From positions 414,401 to 478,400 of the forward strand of contig NZ_CP120678.1 in the NCBI RefSeq assembly GCF_030273445.1: DNA of 64,000 bases, given 5' to 3'. The translations under genes were made by a program, and so were the position numbers. Source of the DNA: Selenobaculum gibii (GTDB lineage: Bacteria > Bacillota > Negativicutes > ICN-92133). Within the stretch, counting starts at the first letter, position 1. Every line of letters begins with the position of its first letter. Below, one piece after another: positions 42,639-55,627 of this stretch. A model generated the notes under the pieces. It made no database searches, was not told the origin of the DNA, and saw only the letters and a program-made list of their open reading frames with translations.

Positions 42639-42693
42639 AAAAGTCGTCGACCGACAGTAGTGTAAAAAATACTAGGCATCGACGACTTTTTTA
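42639..42693 (+). terminator. Long hairpin upstream of CRISPR leader 1
   Basis: AAAAGTCGTCGA (42639-42650) and TCGACGACTTTT (42679-42690) form a perfect stem; an inner TAGT/ACTA stem lies in the loop and T residues follow. A close copy sits at 54423-54477, at the same distance from the second array. Confidence 0.8.
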
Positions 42694-42799: not shown

Positions 42800-44100
42800 A
42801 TTACTAGCTTACCTATAAGGAATTGAAACTTTGGCTACCTTTAGTAAGATTATTGCCAATTATCTCCATTACTAGCTTACCTATAAGGAATTGAAACCGC
42901 AAAAACTTCAAATAATGTCTTACTGCAGAATCTATATTACTAGCTTACCTATAAGGAATTGAAACAAACATTCGGAGTGTGTAAGGCTGTCATTATCAAT
43001 CATTACTAGCTTACCTATAAGGAATTGAAACTCTCACAAAGAGCGTTGATGATGGGTTCATTGAACATTACTAGCTTACCTATAAGGAATTGAAACCATA
43101 CTTCCCACATTGATTGTTCGTTGCGAATTTTATATTACTAGCTTACCTATAAGGAATTGAAACTGAAGTAGAATTACAGCGATACAAGGAAGCTAAAGAA
43201 GATTACTAGCTTACCTATAAGGAATTGAAACCTGAATAGAAAGAATGAGTCATTAGAAAAAGGCAGGGATTACTAGCTTACCTATAAGGAATTGAAACCT
43301 CTATATAATGCTAAAGGAAAAGCAACAATTGAATTACTAGCTTACCTATAAGGAATTGAAACCCGCGATATTTACATCCGGTGCATTGTCGATAATGCAT
43401 TACTAGCTTACCTATAAGGAATTGAAACGAAAAAATGATGTGGAAAGATTGGCTAAACATCTTAGGATTACTAGCTTACCTATAAGGAATTGAAACTTAG
43501 TAATGGAGATACTAATAAAGTTAGGGTTGAGATTACTAGCTTACCTATAAGGAATTGAAACACACGTCACATCCTAATACTGTTCATGGTGGCTGTGAAT
43601 ATTACTAGCTTACCTATAAGGAATTGAAACCCTATACCTATTGAGAACAGTTATCAATTAGTATGTATATTACTAGCTTACCTATAAGGAATTGAAACTC
43701 ATCAATAATGAATGTCCCGTCTCGAATCGTGAGATTACTAGCTTACCTATAAGGAATTGAAACTAAGGAGTGATGTGATGGAAAGAGATGCTTTTACAGA
43801 ATTACTAGCTTACCTATAAGGAATTGAAACCCGCTTGACCGTCTGTAAAGTCTTGTGACCAGCCATGCATTACTAGCTTACCTATAAGGAATTGAAACTT
43901 CGATATTGACCGCGAAAAGAATGAGGCAATTGCGGATTACTAGCTTACCTATAAGGAATTGAAACCGGAGAAAGTCGAGATTGGGAGCAACTTGTTGAGT
44001 TAGATTACTAGCTTACCTATAAGGAATTGAAACCCATCACTCCAGTTATATATCCCAGCTATTCTTCTACATTACTAGCTTATCTATGAGAAATTGAAAC
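42800..44100 (+). CRISPR. CRISPR array 1, 20 repeats and 19 spacers
   Basis: 30-base repeat that begins ATTACTAGCTT and ends AAGGAATTGAAAC; the last eight bases ATTGAAAC give the crRNA handle typical of type I-B. Repeats start at 42800, 42868, 42936, 43002, 43067, 43134, 43202, 43269, 43333, 43399, 43467, 43532, 43601, 43669, 43734, 43801, 43869, 43936, 44004 and 44071. Spacers are 34-39 bases and all differ. The last repeat (44071-44100) carries three changes, marking the old end; with the leader at 42694 the array runs on the plus strand. Confidence 0.98.
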
Positions 44101-44212: not shown

Positions 44213-44938
44213 TTGTTCGAAAAAATAGATGAAAAGCAATTAGAAATAAATCGCTATAGACCGCTGAATCATATACAGTTAAATGAATTAAAAGATTATT
44301 ATAAAATTGGTTTGGTGTATTCATCTAATGCTATCGAAGGCAATACATTAGACATATCTGAGACGAAGGTTGTTCTCGAAGATGGTATTACTATTGGTGG
44401 AAAGCCAATGAAAGATCATCTGGAGGTAATTGGGAGTGGTGCAGCTTTTGATGAGATGATACATATGATTAATGATAAAAAAGAATTAACAGAGCAGTCA
44501 ATAAAGCGATTACATAAAGTATTGTACGCGCCTATCGATATAAAAAATGCTGGTGTTTATAGAAAAAAACAAGTATATATTAGTGGCTCAGAATACAGCG
44601 TAGCAACTGCTAGTGAGATTGCTTTAAAAATGAAAGAGTTTATATTGAAAATGACTGAAATCAAAGATACTATACATCCTGTTGAGTATGCAGCAAGATT
44701 TCATCAGGAATTAGTATATATACATCCATTTATTGATGGGAACGGACGATTATGTAGGACGCTTATGAATTTGATTTTCTTGCAATATGGGTATCCAATC
44801 GTATGTATTTCTCCAATTGTAAAAGTTGATTATATTAGAGCCTTAGAGCAGGGACATAAAAATCCAAATCTATTTATTAAATTTATCGCAGAGCAAGTAA
44901 TAGAAGGTCAAAAAGATTATCTTAGATTGGTAAAGTAA
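44213..44938 (+). CDS. Fic domain protein
   Basis: Fic proteins transfer AMP or a related group to a target protein. 241 residues. The core motif HPFIDGNGR (about 172-180) is complete, with catalytic His. The inhibitory helix motif (S/T)xxxE(G/N) is present N-terminally as SNAIEGN (about 38-44), so this is a self-inhibited class II Fic. TTG start at 44213 with AAGGAGGGG upstream. No antitoxin-like partner gene. Placed between array 1 and the cas genes; its link to CRISPR is unknown. Confidence 0.9.
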   Translation: MFEKIDEKQLEINRYRPLNHIQLNELKDYYKIGLVYSSNAIEGNTLDISETKVVLEDGITIGGKPMKDHLEVIGSGAAFDEMIHMINDKKELTEQSIKRLHKVLYAPIDIKNAGVYRKKQVYISGSEYSVATASEIALKMKEFILKMTEIKDTIHPVEYAARFHQELVYIHPFIDGNGRLCRTLMNLIFLQYGYPIVCISPIVKVDYIRALEQGHKNPNLFIKFIAEQVIEGQKDYLRLVK

Positions 44939-45000: not shown

Positions 45001-45186
45001 CAAAGATAAAATAGGTATCTCCTTAATGAATTATATAGTATGCAATAGTTAAACAATTTATGTATTATCACATAGGAAAAACAAGGCAAATGTAGAATTT
45101 ATTATTAAATGTTAATTTAAACGATAATTTTGTAATATATCATATCGAAGCGGATAGAAAACAGGTGAGATGAAGGAGGATGAAGT

Positions 45187-45552
45187 ATGAGTTCATGGAA
45201 GTATGAAGTTAAATTACGTCAACTAACCCCGCTTATTCATTTTCAAGCGGAGCAACCTCAGGCAACGTTACGGGCAACAGAGGTAAAACCCAAATTAGAT
45301 AGATTCTTATTATGGTATCTCGCTCCGGAGCGGTTTAGTGGGATACTGTCAGGAAAAGATGAAAAAAAATTATTATTGGAAATTGCTCGTTCAAAAAAAT
45401 GGTTGCTTCCGATGGTACAAGGAGATGGTAGCGCTGCTTTAAATTATAAAATGCAAATTAGTGCTGATGAAAAGGACAAGATTGACTTAGATGGTATAGG
45501 TGCATATTTTTCAGTGGGGCAAGATGATAAAAAGTTAGTAGCTTACCTATAA
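45187..45552 (+). pseudogene. RAMP-family (Cmr1-like) CRISPR gene, truncated by a CRISPR repeat
   Basis: 121 codons. LRQLTPLIHFQ followed by ATLRATEVKPKLDRFLL resembles the N-terminal RAMP strand and the recognition helix of Cmr1-like type III proteins, which are usually over twice this long. The frame ends because it runs into a CRISPR repeat at 45534: the last codons (L-V-A-Y-L) and the stop TAA are repeat sequence. GAAGGAGG precedes the ATG, so it was a real gene. No other type III gene is present, so this is a relic. Family call is tentative; the truncation is plain. Confidence 0.6.
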
Positions 45553-45563
45553 GGAATTGAAAC
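45534..45563 (+). repeat. Solitary CRISPR repeat
   Basis: 30 bases matching array 1's repeat except for positions 1 (G) and 5 (G). It has G at position 1 like array 2 but C at position 9 like array 1, so it is a third variant. No second copy or spacer follows; cas6 starts 146 bases later. Confidence 0.92.
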
Positions 45564-45641
45564 CTATTTTTCCACAGATTGATAGCAATTTTATAAATTG
45601 GTTGTAGAGTTCAAACAAAAATAAAATATTTGTGGAAATAG
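45564..45641. repeat. Inverted repeat directly after the solitary CRISPR repeat
   Basis: CTATTTTTCCACA (45564-45576) and TGTGGAAATAG (45631-45641) are inverses save two extra T, 54 bases apart. It sits in the leader of the cas operon; function unknown. Confidence 0.4.
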
Positions 45642-45708
45642 AAGGATATATTTGTAAATATGTCGAATTTACGTTTTCATAAGATGATTTTATAGGGGCG
45701 TATTTTTT

Positions 45709-46455
45709 ATGAGAATGGTGATTACTTTAAAAGCGGAAAATAGCATTGACTTGCCAATTGACCATAATCATATTATTCAGAGTTGGATTTATAGTTCAAT
45801 TAGTAAAGAACTGGCGACTTTTTTACATGATGAAGGCTTTGTTGTGAATGGGCGGACGTTTAAATTATTTTGTTTTTCTCGTCTTATGGGCAATTTTTCA
45901 TTATTTCCTGCCAGACAGAGGATTCTTTATAGTGGAATGGTTCAGCTTGTGATTACTTCACCGCTGAATTATTTTATAGAAGAATTGGCAAATGGGATGC
46001 TTTTAAGCCCTAGTGTGAGATTGGGTAGTAATGATTTAATTGTGGAACGTGTGGACGTTTATGATGAAGAGATTACACAAGATGAAATTATCGTAAAGAC
46101 TTTGTCACCGATTACTGTGTATTCGACGTTGCTTCGCATGGATGGGCGGAAGTATACTGCCTATTTTGCACCGCGTGACCCGGAATACAATGAGATGATT
46201 ACAAATAACCTTATCAAGAAATGTCAGGCGATTTTAAATTCTTCAAGGGAGTTCCAAGTAGGTGATGTTTTGGTTACACCAATTGGTATGGGGAAAATGA
46301 ATATTGTTCGCTATAAAAATATTATTATTAAAGGCTATTCGGGGCGGTTAAAATTATCTGGTCCGAAAAATTTGTTGCAAACTGCTATTGAATGTGGGCT
46401 AGGCAGTAAAAATTCACAGGGATTTGGTTGTATCGAAATAGCAAGAAGGCATTAA
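45709..46455 (+). CDS. cas6: CRISPR endoribonuclease Cas6
   Basis: Cuts pre-crRNA within repeats to leave the eight-base 5' handle. 248 residues with two RAMP/ferredoxin-like halves; the N-terminal half has LPIDHNHIIQSWIYSS and the C-terminal glycine-rich loop is GLGSKNSQGFGCIE. The His pair in DHNH may belong to the catalytic site, though Cas6 catalytic residues vary. First gene of the operon, ATG at 45709. A strong hairpin overlaps its stop codon. Confidence 0.92.
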   Translation: MRMVITLKAENSIDLPIDHNHIIQSWIYSSISKELATFLHDEGFVVNGRTFKLFCFSRLMGNFSLFPARQRILYSGMVQLVITSPLNYFIEELANGMLLSPSVRLGSNDLIVERVDVYDEEITQDEIIVKTLSPITVYSTLLRMDGRKYTAYFAPRDPEYNEMITNNLIKKCQAILNSSREFQVGDVLVTPIGMGKMNIVRYKNIIIKGYSGRLKLSGPKNLLQTAIECGLGSKNSQGFGCIEIARRH

Positions 46456-46513: not shown

Positions 46514-48544
46514 ATGGACATACCAAAATTGTTGAGCAATATGTGTGGTGAGGGTGCTGAAAATTTATTTTCGGCACTCATCAAACCAGCTTCGATTATG
46601 GCAAAAGATCGAAAAAAAGATTTGTTGAATATTTTTATGAATTTTGATTTAGATCAAAAGAAAATCTTTTTTGATGCAGTGCCGTATAGCGGAGATATGG
46701 TTGATGAACAAAAATACCATTATTTCGGTAACAATCCTGCTGCTGCTAAGCAGACATATGTTGTTCGTGATGCGGGGAGTATGCTGAATTTTTGGCTGGG
46801 CAAGTCAAAGGGAATTATGCAAAATCTTTATGAATTTATTGGTGATGGCAAATTAAAAGAGTTACTTAAAGAATGTCAAGAGAGTCAGCTGTTTGATGAA
46901 AAAGGAATTTGTGAAGCAACGATTCAGTTTCGTGAAGCGTTGGGCGAAGTGGAGTTTGAAGTCAAACGTGATAAGGCTGATAAAGGGCTATATATCAACG
47001 GCGATAAAGTCAGTCCGGATAAGTTTATTAATTTTTGCTTAGAAGATGAAAGCAATGGAAAATTTGTATTGGTGATTCCGCAGATTATAAAAGATGGTGA
47101 AACTATTTGCATTTCGCAGGATGAAGGTTATTTAACAGCGATTACTGAATCGTTGCAAGGGGAGAGTAGCGGAAGTATAGCAGTTTGTCATTTGTGTGGG
47201 AAAAGTAAACATGATATTAACACGGTAGAGTATTCGACAAAATTGAGTAAATCGAGTATCGGGAAAGTATTTGTAACGACAACGGTCAATTATAGTCCGC
47301 TGTTTAATAAGAGTAATCATCAGAAAAACTATAGCCTTTGTAAAGCTTGTTATGAAAAGATATTGTTTGGTGAAAAGGCTGTGATGCGGGACTACAAAAT
47401 CCGGATAGCCGGTGAAGATTGCGTGCTATTATTTGCTGGAATAACGGATAAGCTAGAGACAAAATTTTTACCTGCATTAAAAGCTAATATTGATGCCGTA
47501 TTTAATCATAAGGAACTTGATCAAGCAGTCAAAGACTTAATTAACGAATTTGACTGCCAAGGGATGGCGACGTATCTCGGTAAAAAAATTCATTTATATG
47601 AATTTCATATGGTGTTTTATCGGACGGATGGTAAATCAACCAGTGTAGTAAAAACGATTGAAAGTGTATCGCGAATTCGGTTTAAAGAAGTAAATGAGGC
47701 ATTTGAAAAGATTCTTCAAGAGCGATTTGATAAATTTTTAACGTCTTTTTCTTTAGCGAATATTTATCGGATGATTCCTGTCGCGACGAATTCTAAAGGA
47801 GAACAATTAGATATTGGGCGGGTTTTAGATTTTTACAGTGGCATTTTAAAAGGGGAAGCTATTGCGAGAAATGTTATTTTTGATTTTGCAACGGAAGCAT
47901 TAGAAAAGGGGATACGTGAGCTAAATTCAGCAAAATTGCGCAATTATAAAAATTTGCACCGTTTAGAAGCTTTATATGGGAAAGATTACGGCAAAGATTT
48001 TTATAGTGCGGAAATGGTCATGATGTATTTGGCTTTGATTGAGGTATTGCAAGAGTTAAAGATTTTAAATGAGGAGGTAGTTATGATGGAGAAAATAGGT
48101 AGTCCAATGGTACAGTATCCAGAGTATATTCAAGAGATGGAACAGTTTTTAACAGCACATCATTTTAATATGGCACAGAAAAAATTGTTTTACATGGGTG
48201 TATTAATGCATTTGATTGGAAGGGCACAATATAAACAAGACCATAAAACAAAACCAATCCTTGATAAAATAACGTATTCAGGGATGACTGATAAAGAGGT
48301 GCTGGAGTTCTATTTAGAACTTCAGGCAAAAGGGAGACAATATCAAAGTATTTTGTTAAAAAATAAAATTTTAGGTGTTTTTGAACAAATTGAAGGTTGT
48401 GTAACGAGAAACTTGGGAGAAGTCGATAAGAAAAATCAATTAACAGAGAAAGAAAATGTGTTTTTCATTAAAGCGGGGTACAGTTTTTGTGTATTAAATT
48501 ATAAGAATAAAGGGGCGGATAATAATGACAGTAGTGAAGAATAA
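46514..48544 (+). CDS. cas8b: Cascade large subunit Cas8b (Csh1 type)
   Basis: Large subunit of the type I-B interference complex, involved in PAM recognition. 676 residues, normal for Csh1. A zinc-finger-like CHLCGKSKHD at about 237 pairs with CKACYEKI at about 278, the four-cysteine pattern of Cas8b; the rest is divergent. GGTGGTGG lies before the ATG. Overlaps cas7 by 20 bases. Identified by operon position, size and the zinc motif together. Confidence 0.88.
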   Translation: MDIPKLLSNMCGEGAENLFSALIKPASIMAKDRKKDLLNIFMNFDLDQKKIFFDAVPYSGDMVDEQKYHYFGNNPAAAKQTYVVRDAGSMLNFWLGKSKGIMQNLYEFIGDGKLKELLKECQESQLFDEKGICEATIQFREALGEVEFEVKRDKADKGLYINGDKVSPDKFINFCLEDESNGKFVLVIPQIIKDGETICISQDEGYLTAITESLQGESSGSIAVCHLCGKSKHDINTVEYSTKLSKSSIGKVFVTTTVNYSPLFNKSNHQKNYSLCKACYEKILFGEKAVMRDYKIRIAGEDCVLLFAGITDKLETKFLPALKANIDAVFNHKELDQAVKDLINEFDCQGMATYLGKKIHLYEFHMVFYRTDGKSTSVVKTIESVSRIRFKEVNEAFEKILQERFDKFLTSFSLANIYRMIPVATNSKGEQLDIGRVLDFYSGILKGEAIARNVIFDFATEALEKGIRELNSAKLRNYKNLHRLEALYGKDYGKDFYSAEMVMMYLALIEVLQELKILNEEVVMMEKIGSPMVQYPEYIQEMEQFLTAHHFNMAQKKLFYMGVLMHLIGRAQYKQDHKTKPILDKITYSGMTDKEVLEFYLELQAKGRQYQSILLKNKILGVFEQIEGCVTRNLGEVDKKNQLTEKENVFFIKAGYSFCVLNYKNKGADNNDSSEE

Positions 48545-49439
48545 TAGTGATTTCTTATTTATTTTTGATGCGACGAATACGAATCCGAATGGAGACGCGG
48601 ATCAAGAAAACAAACCACGGATGGATAATGAAACAAAAACATTGTTAGTGAGTGATGTTCGCCGGAAACGTGATGTCCGTGATTTTTTAGCGAATAAAGG
48701 GTATGGGATTTTTGTTAATACGTTGAATGATAAAAAAGTGACAATGGACAAGATGTTTGAAGAAGTGATGAAAGATCATGACTTGTCTAAAACATCAACC
48801 GAAGAGGAACAAACAAAATGTATTTTGGAGAATATGATTGATATTCGTTTATTTGGTAGTGCAATGGCGGTGAAAAGTAATATTACGAAGACATTCACTG
48901 GCCCGGTGCAATTAACTTGGGGGTACTCACTTCATCCCGTCGATTTAGTGAAATCAAATTCCATTGTAACGATTATGAATGATGATAATTCGACATTTGG
49001 CAAGATGTATAAAGCGCATTATGCAATGGTTGCGCATAGTGGAACGATAAATAAATTTGCCGCAACGAAAACAGGAGTGACGGAAGAAGATTGTGAAGTA
49101 TTTCGCAGGGCGTTAGTGCAGTCTTTGATGAATAATCTAACGCATAGCAAACAAGGGCAACAGCCGTTACTTTATTTAGAAGTTGTATATCACGAGGATT
49201 TTGATGGATATTTAGGTGATTTACGCAGATTTGTTGAAGCTAAACTCAAGAAAGAATCAGCGATTCGTGGGATAGCAGATATATCCTTGGACTTTGCAAA
49301 TTTAGTGCAAGCGATTGCAGAGTTAAAAGGTAAGGGGTATGTTAAAGAAGTGCGAATTTGGCAGAGTCCATTATTCAAACAGGTGGAAAACTTACCGGAC
49401 GGAGTAAGACTTGATTTATTGAAACCGATTGTTAAATAA
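48525..49439 (+). CDS. cas7: Cascade backbone subunit Cas7 (Csh2 type)
   Basis: Forms the crRNA-binding spine of Cascade. 304 residues. FLFIFDATNTNPNGDAD followed by NKPRMDNET is the Cas7/Csh2 signature; SDVRRKRDVRDFL and GSAMAVKSN-FTGPVQ match it too. AAAGGGG lies upstream of the ATG inside cas8b. Confidence 0.95.
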   Translation: MTVVKNNSDFLFIFDATNTNPNGDADQENKPRMDNETKTLLVSDVRRKRDVRDFLANKGYGIFVNTLNDKKVTMDKMFEEVMKDHDLSKTSTEEEQTKCILENMIDIRLFGSAMAVKSNITKTFTGPVQLTWGYSLHPVDLVKSNSIVTIMNDDNSTFGKMYKAHYAMVAHSGTINKFAATKTGVTEEDCEVFRRALVQSLMNNLTHSKQGQQPLLYLEVVYHEDFDGYLGDLRRFVEAKLKKESAIRGIADISLDFANLVQAIAELKGKGYVKEVRIWQSPLFKQVENLPDGVRLDLLKPIVK

Positions 49440-49452
49440 GGTGGTGAAAGTC

Positions 49453-50220
49453 ATGCAGGCGATTTCCTTTTGCCTTAACGGCAAGATGGCACATTTTAGA
49501 AAATACTATAGCAATTCAACTGCACTTTCACATTTAGTTCCACCTGTGGCGACGATAAAGGGAATCATTGCTGGTTTATTGGGGTATGAACGTGACAGTT
49601 ATTATGAAGAGTTTTCCGATAAACGTTGCAAAGTTGCTTTGTGCGTAAAATCACCGCTGAAGAAAATCACGCAAACAATGAATTTGTTAAAGGTGGAAAG
49701 CTTAAATCATTTAAATGGAGCAGGCTTAAATCGTACGCAAAATCATACAGAGTTTGTCGTGCCGAAAAATCTACAAAGTGAAAATATCTGTTATGAAGTA
49801 ATTTTTTATCATGAAGATAGAAGTGTGATGGAAAAATTAACAGCAATGCTTTGTTTGCCTTCGTCGGCCTATTTGTCGCAAGGAATTAGTGTTGCCTTGG
49901 GAAGTGCACAATGTTTAGGGTGGATTAGTCAGGGCAAAGTAGTGGACTTAGAAAAACGCTTAAGTGATGATGCTGTTATTGCGATTTGTAGTGCAGTTGT
50001 TCTAAACCGAATTGAAAAGATTTGTTTGGAAAAAGAAATCTGCAGCAATTTTTTTAAGGAAGAAACGATTACGGAGTTTGATGAACATCGGTTGATTACG
50101 GAAGGTTCACGTAAAGAGATTTTATTTAACTTGGAAGATACCGCATTGTCATTGATTTTAAAACAAGCTACACCGTATTATGTAATGGATGCAAAAGAGA
50201 ATATTGTATTTTTGGAGTGA
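49453..50220 (+). CDS. cas5: Cascade subunit Cas5 (Cas5h type)
   Basis: Caps the crRNA 5' handle in Cascade. 255 residues; RAMP start with AISFCLNGKMAHFRKYY and the PPVATIKGIIAGLLGYE segment typical of Cas5. ATG at 49453 fits AAGGTGG; an in-frame TTG at 49429 lies inside cas7. Stop overlaps cas3's start. Confidence 0.93.
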   Translation: MQAISFCLNGKMAHFRKYYSNSTALSHLVPPVATIKGIIAGLLGYERDSYYEEFSDKRCKVALCVKSPLKKITQTMNLLKVESLNHLNGAGLNRTQNHTEFVVPKNLQSENICYEVIFYHEDRSVMEKLTAMLCLPSSAYLSQGISVALGSAQCLGWISQGKVVDLEKRLSDDAVIAICSAVVLNRIEKICLEKEICSNFFKEETITEFDEHRLITEGSRKEILFNLEDTALSLILKQATPYYVMDAKENIVFLE

Positions 50221-52553
50221 TTGCGTTGTTGTATGCACATTACGATAAAACTTCTCAAACCGGACAAGCGTTAACAGAGCATCTTGAAGTGGTAGCAAAG
50301 AAGATGGGGGAGAACATTTCCCCACTTCATTTTAAATGTTCGTCCAATGACAGATTAAAGCAACTGTTGTCCCAGACAGGCTACTATCATGATGTCGGTA
50401 AACTCATGAAGAGTTTTCAACGGTATCTTAAAACGGATAAAGGTGGACATGAAAAAGATCATGCATTGATTTCGGCGGGGCTGTTTAGCACAAACTATAA
50501 AGCTAGAGAAATTGACGGCTATTTAGCAATGCTAGCAATCGCTAAACATCATGGCGATTTGAATAATGATATCGCAATGGAGAATAACTTGTTTTCTCAG
50601 CTTACTAATCAGTACGAAGATATTTGTCAGCAAATTGAAGCTTATCCAGAGTATAAGGAGAAATTAAGCACAACTTTTGATTTAGCTGTGTATCAAAAAT
50701 TTATACAAGATAATGTTAGCTATATAAGAAGTAAACGAAATTTATCGATGAATGGTGTAGAATCGTTTTTCTTGCTGCAATATATTTTTTCTAAGCTGAT
50801 TTGGGCAGATAAATTAAATTCTGCTGGATTAGACAAAAAAGAAAGCGTGAATACGACTAAGCTGGCTGATATCGAACGTTATATTCGGGAAAAAAATCAG
50901 CAAGCCATGGCGGTAAATGAAAAGCGGGAAACGATTCGGCGTAGTGTACTAGAGAAAGTGGATGCGTTAACGGAGGAAGAGTTTGGTAAAACGCGGATTT
51001 TTCAATTAACTGCACCGACGGGAACAGGCAAAACCTTGACGAGTATTTGTGCGGGATTAAAGATTATGGAGCGGATGCAAAAGCTTTATCAGTGCCGCGG
51101 ACAAATTATTACAGCATTGCCGTTTATCAATATTTTAGAGCAGACGAAAATAGATTATGAAGCATTTTTTGCTGATGTATTGGTGCATTATAGTGGGGCG
51201 GATTTGAATGCTACAGCGGAAAATAAATCTGAGCATGAGACTGATTTGCAGAAAAAACTGCTGTTAATGTCAGCGTGGGAAAGTCCAGTCGTGATTACTA
51301 CCTTCGTACAATTTTTTGAATCTATTTTAACGGATAAGAATAAGCGATTGATAAAGCTTCACAAATTGGCGGGCAGTGTTGTCATCTTAGATGAGGTGCA
51401 AACGATTCCGTTTTACTATGCACCGCTTTTAGGGGCGGTGATTCAGCATTTGGCGGATTTTTATGGAACTCGGTTTATTTTAATGACCGCAACGCAGCCG
51501 GAAATTGTAACTATGGCAAATCGGTTTTTGCCTAAGGACAATCCTATGCATACCTATGAATTGTTGCCGAGCTACCAAGAGTACTATTCGGAGTTAAAGC
51601 GAACGAAGATTATTCCCGTCTTTGATAAGGTCGAAGATAATGAAGCGCTTGTCGAATTTATCAAAGCGACGAAAGAAGAGGATCAATCCGCATTGGTAGT
51701 GGTCAATACGATTCGGCAGAGTATCGAAGTTTATCAACTGTTAAAGGAAGATTACCAAGTGCTTTACCTATCAACGAATTTAATTCCTGTCGATAGAAAA
51801 GCGGTAATCAAAGAAGCAAAAGCTTTATTAAAGCAGAAAGTGCCGTTTATTTTAGTGTCAACACAAACGATTGAAGCTGGCGTTGATTTAGATTTTGACA
51901 TCGGGTATCGGGATTTAGCACCGCTAGAATCGATTATTCAAGTTGCCGGCAGAATCAATCGGGCTGGTGATAAAGGGGAGTATCTGCCGTTATATGTATT
52001 TGATACAGGGAGTGCAAAATCTGTTTATGACCAGTATCCAAGGCAAGAAACGAGTAAAATGCTAAAAGCATGCGAAAGTATCGGTGAAGATAAATACTTA
52101 TCTTTGATTAAGCAGTATTATCAACGAATTGCTAAATCGGAGCAGCATGAACGGCAGATTTATCGAGCAATGCATGTATTGGAGTATAAAACCGAGGTGA
52201 AGGATTGCCTGGCAATTCGTGATTTTTCGCTGATTGAGAATCAAGATAATGTTAAAACAGTTTTGATTACTAAAACAGCACAAGTACAGGAAAAAGCAGA
52301 AGAATATGCGCAGTTATTAGAAGAAGAACATTTAGATTTTGCACAAAAGGCCAAATTAAAACAACTCCTTACGGAATTGAGTCGCTATACGGTGGATATT
52401 CGCGTGGCGAATTTAGCTAAAAATATACCGTGTAAATTTGCCGATGTACATAGAGTCGAGCTGGATTGGTATGTCGTACAATTGGATGAAGTAAAAAACT
52501 ATTATAATGAGACGGGATTTATGACAGAGAGCCCGCAAGCGTTTGTTTATTGA
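50217..52553 (+). CDS. cas3: Cas3 nuclease-helicase
   Basis: Single-chain Cas3: N-terminal HD nuclease (about 1-230) with H in LTEHLEVV, YYHDVGKLM and KHHGDL, then superfamily 2 helicase with Walker A TAPTGTGKTLT, DEVQ box LDEVQTIPF, MTATQPE, and motif VI GRINRAGD. 778 residues. It unwinds and degrades DNA bound by Cascade. The GTG at 50217 overlaps the cas5 stop; TTG at 50226 is a second possibility eight bases after GGAG. Confidence 0.95.
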   Translation: MIALLYAHYDKTSQTGQALTEHLEVVAKKMGENISPLHFKCSSNDRLKQLLSQTGYYHDVGKLMKSFQRYLKTDKGGHEKDHALISAGLFSTNYKAREIDGYLAMLAIAKHHGDLNNDIAMENNLFSQLTNQYEDICQQIEAYPEYKEKLSTTFDLAVYQKFIQDNVSYIRSKRNLSMNGVESFFLLQYIFSKLIWADKLNSAGLDKKESVNTTKLADIERYIREKNQQAMAVNEKRETIRRSVLEKVDALTEEEFGKTRIFQLTAPTGTGKTLTSICAGLKIMERMQKLYQCRGQIITALPFINILEQTKIDYEAFFADVLVHYSGADLNATAENKSEHETDLQKKLLLMSAWESPVVITTFVQFFESILTDKNKRLIKLHKLAGSVVILDEVQTIPFYYAPLLGAVIQHLADFYGTRFILMTATQPEIVTMANRFLPKDNPMHTYELLPSYQEYYSELKRTKIIPVFDKVEDNEALVEFIKATKEEDQSALVVVNTIRQSIEVYQLLKEDYQVLYLSTNLIPVDRKAVIKEAKALLKQKVPFILVSTQTIEAGVDLDFDIGYRDLAPLESIIQVAGRINRAGDKGEYLPLYVFDTGSAKSVYDQYPRQETSKMLKACESIGEDKYLSLIKQYYQRIAKSEQHERQIYRAMHVLEYKTEVKDCLAIRDFSLIENQDNVKTVLITKTAQVQEKAEEYAQLLEEEHLDFAQKAKLKQLLTELSRYTVDIRVANLAKNIPCKFADVHRVELDWYVVQLDEVKNYYNETGFMTESPQAFVY

Positions 52554-52554
52554 T

Positions 52555-52595
52555 AAAAATCCCGATGGTTGCTAAAAACCGTCGGGATTTTTTAT
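52555..52595 (+). terminator. Hairpin between cas3 and cas4
   Basis: AAAAATCCCGATGGTT pairs with AACCGTCGGGATTTTTT around a short loop; T run present. It separates interference genes from adaptation genes. Confidence 0.85.
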
Positions 52596-52610
52596 CGGGG
52601 AGGGATAGGA

Positions 52611-53108
52611 ATGGACGTTAAAGTAAATGGAACCTTGATTTGGTATTACTATATTTGCAAGCGTGAAGTTTGGCTTATGGGGCATCAAATTGTGCCAGAT
52701 CAAGAAAATGATAATGTGTTGATTGGTAAAAGTATCGCTGAATATTCGTATGCCCGTGAGAAAAAAGAAATTGTTGTTGATAACATTAAAATTGACGTTT
52801 TGGAACTAGCTGATGGGAAATTTTGCATTAGTGAAGTAAAGAAAAGCTCACGTTATAAGCAAAGTGCCAGGATGCAATTGGCATTTTACATGAGTAAATT
52901 GAAGGAACGTGGCATAGAGGCGAAAGGCGAATTAAGATTTCCTAAAGAGAAAATTCGGGAAGAAGTTGTCCTCGATGCACAAACAGAAGCAGAACTATTA
53001 AAAATAATAGAAGATATTTCAGTCATCTTAAATGAAGAAAAACCATTGCCGCCGGAAAAACAGAAGTTTTGCCGCAATTGTGCATATGCAGAATTTTGTT
53101 GGTGCTAA
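52611..53108 (+). CDS. cas4: Cas4 exonuclease
   Basis: RecB-like iron-sulphur nuclease that trims prespacers. 165 residues. First cluster cysteine is in YYICKREVWL, the last three in CRNCAYAEFCWC; the nuclease core shows Asp in DVLELADG, ISEVKKSS (E-x-K) and QLAFYMSKL (QxxxY). ATG at 52611 follows GGGAGGG; the upstream in-frame extension overlaps the terminator. Confidence 0.94.
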   Translation: MDVKVNGTLIWYYYICKREVWLMGHQIVPDQENDNVLIGKSIAEYSYAREKKEIVVDNIKIDVLELADGKFCISEVKKSSRYKQSARMQLAFYMSKLKERGIEAKGELRFPKEKIREEVVLDAQTEAELLKIIEDISVILNEEKPLPPEKQKFCRNCAYAEFCWC

Positions 53109-53118
53109 AGGGGGATAA

Positions 53119-54114
53119 ATGATGAAAAAGACACTATACTTTTTCTCAGATGGGGTCTTGCAACGTAAAGATAATACGATATTTTTTGAAACGGCGGAGG
53201 GCAGAAGGTTTTTGCCGGTTGAAGATGTTGGCGAAATTATGGTATTTGGAGAAGTAAATTTTAATAAAGCGCTTGTGGAATTACTATCGCAAAAAGAAAT
53301 TATTTTGCACTACTTTAATTATTATGGCTATTATATGGGAAGTTTTTATCCGCGCGAGCATTTGAATTCAGGGTATACGATTTTAAAGCAGGCTGAGTTT
53401 TATATGGATGAAGCGAAACGATTAGCATTAGCAAAATTGTTTGTAAGTGGGGCGGCGAAAAACATTCGGCAGATTCTAAAATATTATTTGAATCGTGGAC
53501 GCGATTTAACGGAGATTTTAGAAACAGTTGGGAAGTTATTTCCGAGTATTGAAAGTTCAGAAACGATTCCGGAATTAATGGCGATAGAAGGGAATATTCG
53601 TGAAACATATTATAAGGCGTTTGATACGATTATCGATGATAAAGATTTTGTATTTCAGGAGCGAACTCGCCGACCTCCGAAGAATTATTTGAATACATTA
53701 ATTAGTTTTGGCAATACATTAGCATATACTGTTTGTTTAAGTGAAATTTATAAAACTCATTTAGATCCACGTATAGGATATTTACATAGTACGAATTTTC
53801 GTAGATTTTCACTTAACTTAGATGTTTCGGAAATTTTTAAGCCTATTTTAGTAGATAGAATTATCTTTAGTTGTATTGCTAAAAAGATGATTACCAAGAA
53901 AGATTTTGTCAGTGATACCGAAGGGATTATTTTAAAAGAGAAAGGCAAGAAATGTTTTATTGAAAATTGGGAAGAAAAATTGAAAACGACATTCCAACAT
54001 CGAGAAATTGGCAAATCTGTATCATATCGTCGCTTGATAAGGTTGGAATTATACAAAATTGAAAAGCACATTATGGGCGAAAAAACATATGAACCATTTA
54101 TAGCTAAGTGGTAG
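53119..54114 (+). CDS. cas1: Cas1 integrase, I-B type
   Basis: Integrates new spacers with Cas2. 331 residues. LYFFSDGVLQRKDNTIFF opens the beta domain; the metal site residues lie in AIEGNIRETYY (Glu), LHSTNFRRFSLNLD (His, then Asp within DVSEIFKP). ATG at 53119 or 53122, after AAAGGGGG. Confidence 0.95.
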   Translation: MMKKTLYFFSDGVLQRKDNTIFFETAEGRRFLPVEDVGEIMVFGEVNFNKALVELLSQKEIILHYFNYYGYYMGSFYPREHLNSGYTILKQAEFYMDEAKRLALAKLFVSGAAKNIRQILKYYLNRGRDLTEILETVGKLFPSIESSETIPELMAIEGNIRETYYKAFDTIIDDKDFVFQERTRRPPKNYLNTLISFGNTLAYTVCLSEIYKTHLDPRIGYLHSTNFRRFSLNLDVSEIFKPILVDRIIFSCIAKKMITKKDFVSDTEGIILKEKGKKCFIENWEEKLKTTFQHREIGKSVSYRRLIRLELYKIEKHIMGEKTYEPFIAKW

Positions 54115-54122
54115 TAGAGGTG

Positions 54123-54389
54123 ATGATTTTGTTTGTGATACTAGTTTATGATATTCACGTAAAACGAGTGGCAAAAGTATTAAAAAAATGTCGTCAATAT
54201 CTTAATTGGGTACAAAACTCAGTCTTTGAAGGAGAAATCTCCGATGGCAATTATAAAAAATTGATGATAGAATTGAATCATATTATAAAAGAGCAAGATT
54301 CGGTTATTATTTATAATATGAGGACAACAAGATATTACTCCAGAGCCATATTAGGTGTAGAAAGGTGCGAAACGGGTAATATATTGTAA
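54123..54389 (+). CDS. cas2: Cas2
   Basis: 88-residue partner of Cas1. FVILVYDIHVKRVAKVLKKC with the conserved Asp, RQYLNWVQNSVFEGEIS and VIIYNMRT fit Cas2. ATG at 54123 preferred (AGAGGTG upstream); GTG at 54108 is in frame but lies inside cas1. Ends 34 bases before the hairpin of leader 2. Confidence 0.95.
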   Translation: MILFVILVYDIHVKRVAKVLKKCRQYLNWVQNSVFEGEISDGNYKKLMIELNHIIKEQDSVIIYNMRTTRYYSRAILGVERCETGNIL

Positions 54390-54422: not shown

Positions 54423-54477
54423 AAAAAGTCGTCGACCATAGATAGTGTAAAAACACCTAGGGGTCGACGACTTTTTG
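54423..54477 (+). terminator. Long hairpin upstream of CRISPR leader 2
   Basis: AAAAAGTCGTCGACC (54423-54437) and its inverse (54462-54476), with TAGTGTAAAAA in the loop as in the copy at 42639. It also ends the cas operon. Confidence 0.85.
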
Positions 54478-54583: not shown

Positions 54584-55627
54584 GTTATTAGATTACCTAT
54601 AAGGAATTGAAACTCCGATACTTTCCATCGCCGCATGGAGTTACAATTAGTTATTAGATTACCTATAAGGAATTGAAACGCTTCTGCTTGTGCTTTCGTA
54701 TAAACCTCTTTTTTCTCTGGTTATTAGATTACCTATAAGGAATTGAAACTTTCGAGATTGGCGGATGCTATCAAAATTGCCCCGGAGTTATTAGATTACC
54801 TATAAGGAATTGAAACGAAGGCTCAAGCGATCTGGACTTGATAAGGTTGTTCAGTTATTAGATTACCTATAAGGAATTGAAACCATCTTGCAACGCCCTA
54901 ATGAATCCAGATGCCGTATTTGTTATTAGATTACCTATAAGGAATTGAAACCAACTATGAAGCCTTAGGAATCAAGCCATACGTACAAACGTTATTAGAT
55001 TACCTATAAGGAATTGAAACACCTCACTCATGACTACATCACCCTGCGCCCCTACAGCAGTTATTAGATTACCTATAAGGAATTGAAACTTTATTAGTTC
55101 ACCCTATTGACATGTAGTACATATTGGTTATTAGATTACCTATAAGGAATTGAAACAGCGTTTCAAGTTGCTTGTCACGTTCTTTTACTTGTTCGTTATT
55201 AGATTACCTATAAGGAATTGAAACCATTTACAGACAACCAGAGAAGGCTTCACAAAGAGTTATTAGATTACCTATAAGGAATTGAAACTATGCATTAGGA
55301 ACCGTTTTATCGTACGCTGGCCGAGGTTATTAGATTACCTATAAGGAATTGAAACTCCCCATCATATCATTAATATAAAAAATTGTTCTTTCGTTATTAG
55401 ATTACCTATAAGGAATTGAAACAAGCGAGAATACAACTTGCTCCGGAAAGCTTTACTACCGTTATTAGATTACCTATAAGGAATTGAAACCTTGCCAAAG
55501 GGAATCACCCCTTCCTTTTGTTCATTGCCGTTATTAGATTACCTATAAGGAATTGAAACATTGGCTTGTCATTACAGATGTAGCAGCCCCCACAGCAGTT
55601 ATTAGATTACCTATAAGGATATTGTGA
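54584..55627 (+). CRISPR. CRISPR array 2, 16 repeats and 15 spacers
   Basis: 30-base repeat starting GTTATTAGATT and ending AAGGAATTGAAAC; differs from array 1 at positions 1, 5 and 9 only. Repeats start at 54584, 54650, 54720, 54787, 54854, 54922, 54991, 55060, 55127, 55195, 55259, 55326, 55393, 55461, 55530 and 55598. Spacers are 34-40 bases, all different. The final repeat is broken after 22-23 matching bases (AAGGATATTGTGA), showing it is the leader-distal end. Same orientation as array 1 and the cas operon. Confidence 0.98.

Follow-up and report, generated by a model that had tools for sequence, protein, structure and literature searches.

How does the start of a type III-B gene come to end inside a solitary CRISPR repeat, directly ahead of a complete type I-B cas operon? 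This arrangement is found on the forward strand of the window, the 64,000-nucleotide stretch of the Selenobaculum gibii genome analysed here. The open frame extends from an ATG at 45187 to 45552 (121 codons) and is preceded by a good ribosome site, AAGGAGGA. Secure Cmr1 homology covers its first 101 residues (45187–45489, + strand, the 5' part of cmr1). The PADLOC Cmr1 profile PDLC01492 matched residues 4–100 with an E-value of 3.3e-23, and the Cmr1 protein of PDB 9lq5 matched residues 10–100 with an E-value of 5.3e-9. A profile of our own from four homologues (L004 left out and L043 not included) aligned residues 3–101 and nothing beyond, residue 101 corresponding to base 45489. Pfam and NCBIfam gave no match to the 121-codon fragment at E 10. 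Judged by these profile matches, the product is the N-terminus of Cmr1, a type III-B RAMP protein; the profile search of the 121 residues proposed in the preliminary description thus found a RAMP family and narrowed the RAMP-like N-terminus recognized there to Cmr1.

The length of the fragment was compared with that of its relatives. Of 379 further genomes of the class, 3 contained such a relative, as did 2 of 397 further genomes from the phylum (G237 being counted in both); relatives were also present on two named contigs. Their Cmr1 proteins had 429 (L003), 394 (L030), 410 (L031), 412 (L032) and about 425 (L004) amino acids, and G477 had an open frame of 435. In L003, L030, L031 and L032 the match reached profile position 286–288 of 288, while the fragment reached only 72; hence, the fragment is about the first quarter of Cmr1, with about 70% of the protein missing, and its 121 codons fall short of a full-length Cmr1 (about 390–435 residues). 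Homologues ending near residue 115, which the preliminary description had named as evidence against a broken gene, were not seen, the full-length ones having about 394–435 residues. Neither were there conserved short homologues of Cmr1, as all matches in the genomes of the class and the phylum lay in frames of 396–435 codons. The 115 codons upstream of the repeat-derived codons showed no further decay, which points either to a recent event or to some constraint on the frame.

The repeat into which the frame runs (45534–45563, + strand) was identified both by Rfam and by a scan of the genome. As reported in the preliminary description, this lone 30-base repeat supplies the last codons and the stop; these are codons 117–121 and TAA. 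The Rfam model CRISPR-DR2 (RF01315) covered positions 1–30 of 30 with 43.2 bits, the top of 16 matches in the window, and the repeat is complete, with an intact 8-nt Cas6 handle and an intact 3' end. It was the sole isolated copy among 51 genome-wide matches (0 in the reversed-pattern control). The others form array 1 (42800–44100, + strand, 20 repeats of the ATTACTAGC... type), array 2 (54584–55627, + strand, 16 repeats of the GTTATTAGA... type), the last repeat being degenerate in both, and a third array at G000:C1:932.6 kb. The distance from the lone repeat is 1.4 kb to array 1 and 9 kb to array 2. Direct reading of the repeat gave a stop in each of its three frames (TGA in frame 1, TAA in frame 2 and TAG in frame 3), so that any frame entering it must end there. 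The stop inside the repeat is thus uninformative in itself and no coincidence.

The lone repeat differs at 2 of 30 positions from array 1 and likewise at 2 of 30 from arrays 2 and 3, and its variant (GTTAGTAGC...) is absent from all three arrays of the genome, whose non-terminal repeats are internally identical (19/19, 15/15 and 15/15). A distinct variant next to such uniform arrays fits a separate array that has been lost. Conceivably, the first five bases of the repeat are chimeric and were supplied by cmr1. No second repeat was found beside it, and the locus does not amount to an array of at least two repeats with spacers. A faint candidate for a second, degenerate repeat 37 nt downstream, recognizable by GTTGTAG, was rejected as unconvincing, with shuffles giving 70 of 5000 (8 nt) and 767 of 5000 (full repeat).

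The preliminary description had regarded the repeat as the last one of its array. We counted the state of array ends in the window and in L017, L034 and L037–L042, leaving out ends cut by gaps or by the edge of a stretch as well as antisense elements. Among the 15 ends, 12 carried at least 3 mismatches to their own array, one carried a single mismatch and two carried none, one of these two sitting 61 nt from the edge of its stretch. With its intact 3' end, the lone repeat resembles the internal repeats of an array rather than the terminal one, and DNA on its 3' side would then have to have been lost as well. It may be a rarer intact array end or an internal repeat that a second loss has exposed, or the event may be recent.

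The point at which cmr1 would have been joined to the array DNA was also examined. Between the secure homology and the repeat lie 44 in-frame nucleotides (45490–45533, + strand) without significant homology, which could be a variable part of Cmr1 or spacer or junction DNA, and multiple alignments provided no trustworthy partner for residues 102–115. The join may be at any point of 45490–45533, no further than 44 nt from the start of the repeat, because residue 101 is the last with secure homology. The gene had been described as broken exactly at the repeat; the frame does stop inside it, but the break itself may precede it by up to 44 nt. A spacer origin of the two flanks of the repeat (45490–45533 and 45564–45603) found no support: they matched phages at chance level only, and 22–23-nt pieces of both had no exact match in viral contigs.

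The type III-B loci of the relatives indicate what may once have adjoined the fragment. By profile, the operon order in L003 and L032 is cmr1-cas10-cmr3-cmr4-cmr5-cmr6; L030 and L031 have the same order of open frames, and were scanned for Cmr1 and Cas6 (L030) or Cmr1 and Cas10 (L031) only. Directly before cmr1, L003 has a Cas6b-like gene of PADLOC family PDLC01782, which it has in common with the cas6 of the window. An array downstream of cmr1 and oriented like it was present in three (L003, L030, L032) of the five cmr1 loci scanned for arrays, and none was seen in the stretches examined of L004 and L031. The window shares with these loci the 101 N-terminal residues of Cmr1, including the LTPLIHFQ...ATLRATEVKPKLDRFL stretch, but it keeps only 2–72 of the 288 profile positions and has no cas10, cmr3–6 or effector gene adjoining.

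No replacement for the missing parts was detected elsewhere. The 2.68-Mb genome contained no further match to the cmr1 fragment, and the search for Cas10 gave nothing convincing (best score 14.2 bits; Cmr2_N 16 bits, below the cut-off), so that the cas10 gene by which a type III-B system is recognized was not found in this genome. The RAMP model PF03787 had no match in the genome and also missed the cmr1 fragment, and for this reason the absence of all small Cmr subunits is only likely. With about 70% of Cmr1 gone and probably no Cas10 or Cmr complex left, the remnant would have no Cmr function. A listing of the literature on type III-B systems of related bacteria contained nothing about this locus.

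In contrast to the type III-B remnant, the type I-B system is complete. The operon, all on the + strand, comprises cas6 (Cas6b; 45709–46455, profile matches including PADLOC), cas8b (46514–48544, PF09484 and PADLOC Cas8b), cas7 (Csh2; 48525–49439, profile matches), cas5b (49429–50220, profile matches including PADLOC), cas3 (50217–52553), cas4 (52569–53108), cas1 of type I-B (53119–54114, TIGR03641, 464.7 bits) and cas2 (54108–54389). We compared its upstream side with that of 10 type I-B cas6 loci, which belong to nine further genomes of the class. In four of the 10 (L039, L040, L041 and L042) there were repeats that have the same strand as cas6 and end about 90–725 nt ahead of it, with assembly gaps inside the arrays of L040 and L042, and in L037 an array ended about 3.5 kb upstream. 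With 145 nt between it and cas6, the lone repeat hence occupies a place in which relatives have an array. The window and L039–L042 have in common a repeat of the same family and strand that lies no more than a few hundred bases from cas6; where those loci have an array, the window has a single repeat, and it lacks a leader.

As arrays can lie downstream of the cmr genes in related type III-B loci and upstream of cas6 in related type I-B loci, a deletion from cmr1 into an array fits best. We consider it probable that the locus is the scar of a large deletion that joined the front of cmr1 to a leftover array repeat before the intact type I-B system. The ancestor would have carried a type III-B locus, cmr1 first and then cas10 and the other cmr genes, followed by an array in the same orientation as the cmr genes and right before the type I-B cas6 operon. 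A single deletion, most simply of a few kilobases, would have run from inside cmr1 (after about codon 101–115) to within the array, leaving the start of cmr1 and one repeat, in which the frame was forced to stop; the type I-B system, still complete, would have continued alone. We infer that a single event took place, which direction it had and that an array with a repeat variant of its own was lost, as well as the full ancestral arrangement. Against the deletion stand the intact 3' end of the lone repeat, compared with the 12 mismatched ends among 15, the absence of further decay in the 115 codons and the lack of an intact locus. The stretches examined of the 10 related type I-B loci had no cmr1 near cas6, no type I-B operon accompanied the three cmr loci found in the class, and an intact cmr1, array and type I-B locus was absent from all genomes searched, the order being represented by the present genome (G000) alone. 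Of the deletion put forward in the preliminary description, the loss of a type III locus together with an array thus remains the best reading, while the identification of the repeat as the last one is weakened. The comparison of related genomes suggested there recovered the order of cmr1, cas10, cmr3–6 and array in relatives, but not an intact arrangement at this place.

The case is most likely ordinary decay of a CRISPR defence locus and not a new mechanism. It provides a clean example in which one CRISPR type was deleted and its neighbour survived, the breakpoint lying in an array or next to it. Deletion alone can yield a solitary repeat next to cas genes, a point to bear in mind whenever solitary repeats are classed as regulatory elements. 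As a fossil the locus is ordinary, and it would be more important only if the captured repeat now influences the cas transcript.

Such an influence could arise on top of the deletion if the old cmr1 promoter reads through to cas6-cas2, so that remnant and repeat form part of the mRNA leader, and Cas6 cleaves this leader at the repeat. The amount of Cascade would then be subject to feedback, and through the loss of type III the remaining type I-B system would have acquired a feedback control in which Cas6 cuts the transcript of its own operon. An intact CRISPR repeat is a substrate of Cas6, and the lone repeat is intact. There is also a sigma-70-like site upstream of cmr1 (45116–45143) and none on the + strand in the intergenic region between repeat and cas6 (45564–45708), a 145-nt segment that lacks a convincing second repeat and is not convincingly duplicated elsewhere in the genome, and the arrays of four of the 10 relatives would put repeats at a matching position. 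The promoter matches were, however, not above chance (10 found against 8.4 expected from shuffles) and the folding of the leader was not unusual (z −1.4), and we regard such a leader as unlikely. Still less can be said for a functional small protein, for instance a decoy or inhibitor that uses the repeat as its stop, which we consider very improbable: the good start site and the 115 codons without decay would agree with it, but whichever frame enters the repeat has to stop there, and the few genomes with a match (3 of 379 in the class, 2 of 397 in the phylum) have long frames, with no conserved short homologue among them. Repeats are classic sites of mis-assembly, which would speak for an error that fused two loci. 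Such an error is hardly to be expected in a single 2.68-Mb contig of 99.3% completeness, in which the remaining cmr genes were not found elsewhere.

A regulatory guide of the CreR/CreA sort would be a different use of the repeat. An RNA matured by Cas6, starting with ATTGAAACCUAUU and carrying the guide CTATTTTTCCA..., would direct Cascade to repress the cas promoter. The lone repeat is placed suitably, just upstream of cas6, and is complete with its 8-nt handle; ectopic repeats are reported for type I systems in PMC8501985 and PMC12737573, and antisense ones with seed matches occur in related genomes. CreA guides are described in PMC8501985 as pairing through nucleotides 1–5 and 7–11 next to a PAM, and we searched for such seed matches. 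The TTA flank was taken from the elements of the relatives only, since a search with the whole of array 1 as a single stretch did not reveal a useful protospacer. Within 900 nt in both directions no pairing of this kind was found, the best site reaching 8/10 with any flank; the best TTA-flanked site within 250 nt reached 6/10, of which about one is expected by chance, and genome-wide there were 12 non-self seed matches against 11 in the reversed control. The same test succeeded with L038 (9/10), L040 (9/10) and L041 (10/10), at offsets of −69, −64 and −58 and with at most 0.03 expected by chance, was weak with L042 (7/10, 0.14 expected) and failed with L034, L035 and L036. A guide target elsewhere, reached by relaxed pairing, is conceivable. 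Ectopic repeats of this sort are moreover described as degenerated in PMC9458426, and the lone repeat is not. The window shares with the systems of PMC8501985 and PMC12737573 a repeat outside an array and beside cas genes, but neither the seed complementarity nor the degeneration, and the candidate was rejected as quite improbable. Solitary repeat units (Racr), as presented in PMC10651486, likewise consist of a single intact repeat; those described belong to the genomes of viruses, where they frequently follow a promoter and have no cas genes next to them, whereas the lone repeat here follows a broken cas gene within a cas locus of the chromosome.

Degenerate antisense repeats, on the minus strand, were observed in the type I-B loci L038 (1730–1806), L040 (17367–17396), L041 (19595–19680) and, weaker, L042 (9509–9538), those of L038 and L042 sitting just behind cas6. 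The 10–11 nt that follow these repeats match a TTA-flanked site 58–69 nt upstream of the repeat, and the elements look like self-repressing guides of the CreR type, to judge from this pairing; the one in L038 has a very short spacer of 17 nt. In L034 (13061–13090), L035 (6262–6291) and L036 (11047–11076), an intact or near-intact lone repeat follows cas6 together with an antisense degenerate repeat, and no other matching cas genes were seen downstream of cas6 in the stretches examined. Their guide-like flank is conserved as CTA[AT]TGATGGCTCCG, and no seed target was found near that of L034 or L036.

Further observations concern the surroundings of the probable deletion scar and the other arrays. 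An intact Fic-domain gene (44213–44938, + strand, PF02661, E 5e-21) with a TTG start and, by eye, an HPFIDGNGR motif separates array 1 from the remnant of cmr1. The third array (G000:C1:932586–933619, L017:187–1220) has 16 repeats of the array 2 type; no cas genes were seen adjoining it, and the genes that come after it resemble histidine-biosynthesis genes (names assigned by eye). A rearrangement with this array as partner was found to be unsupported, as these genes and not cas genes follow it. All three arrays are preceded, about 100 nt before the first repeat, by a conserved, terminator-like hairpin (AAAAGTCGTCGACC...GTCGACGACTTTTT) at 42639–42691, at 54424–54476 and at about L017:36–90, which perhaps insulates the array promoters.
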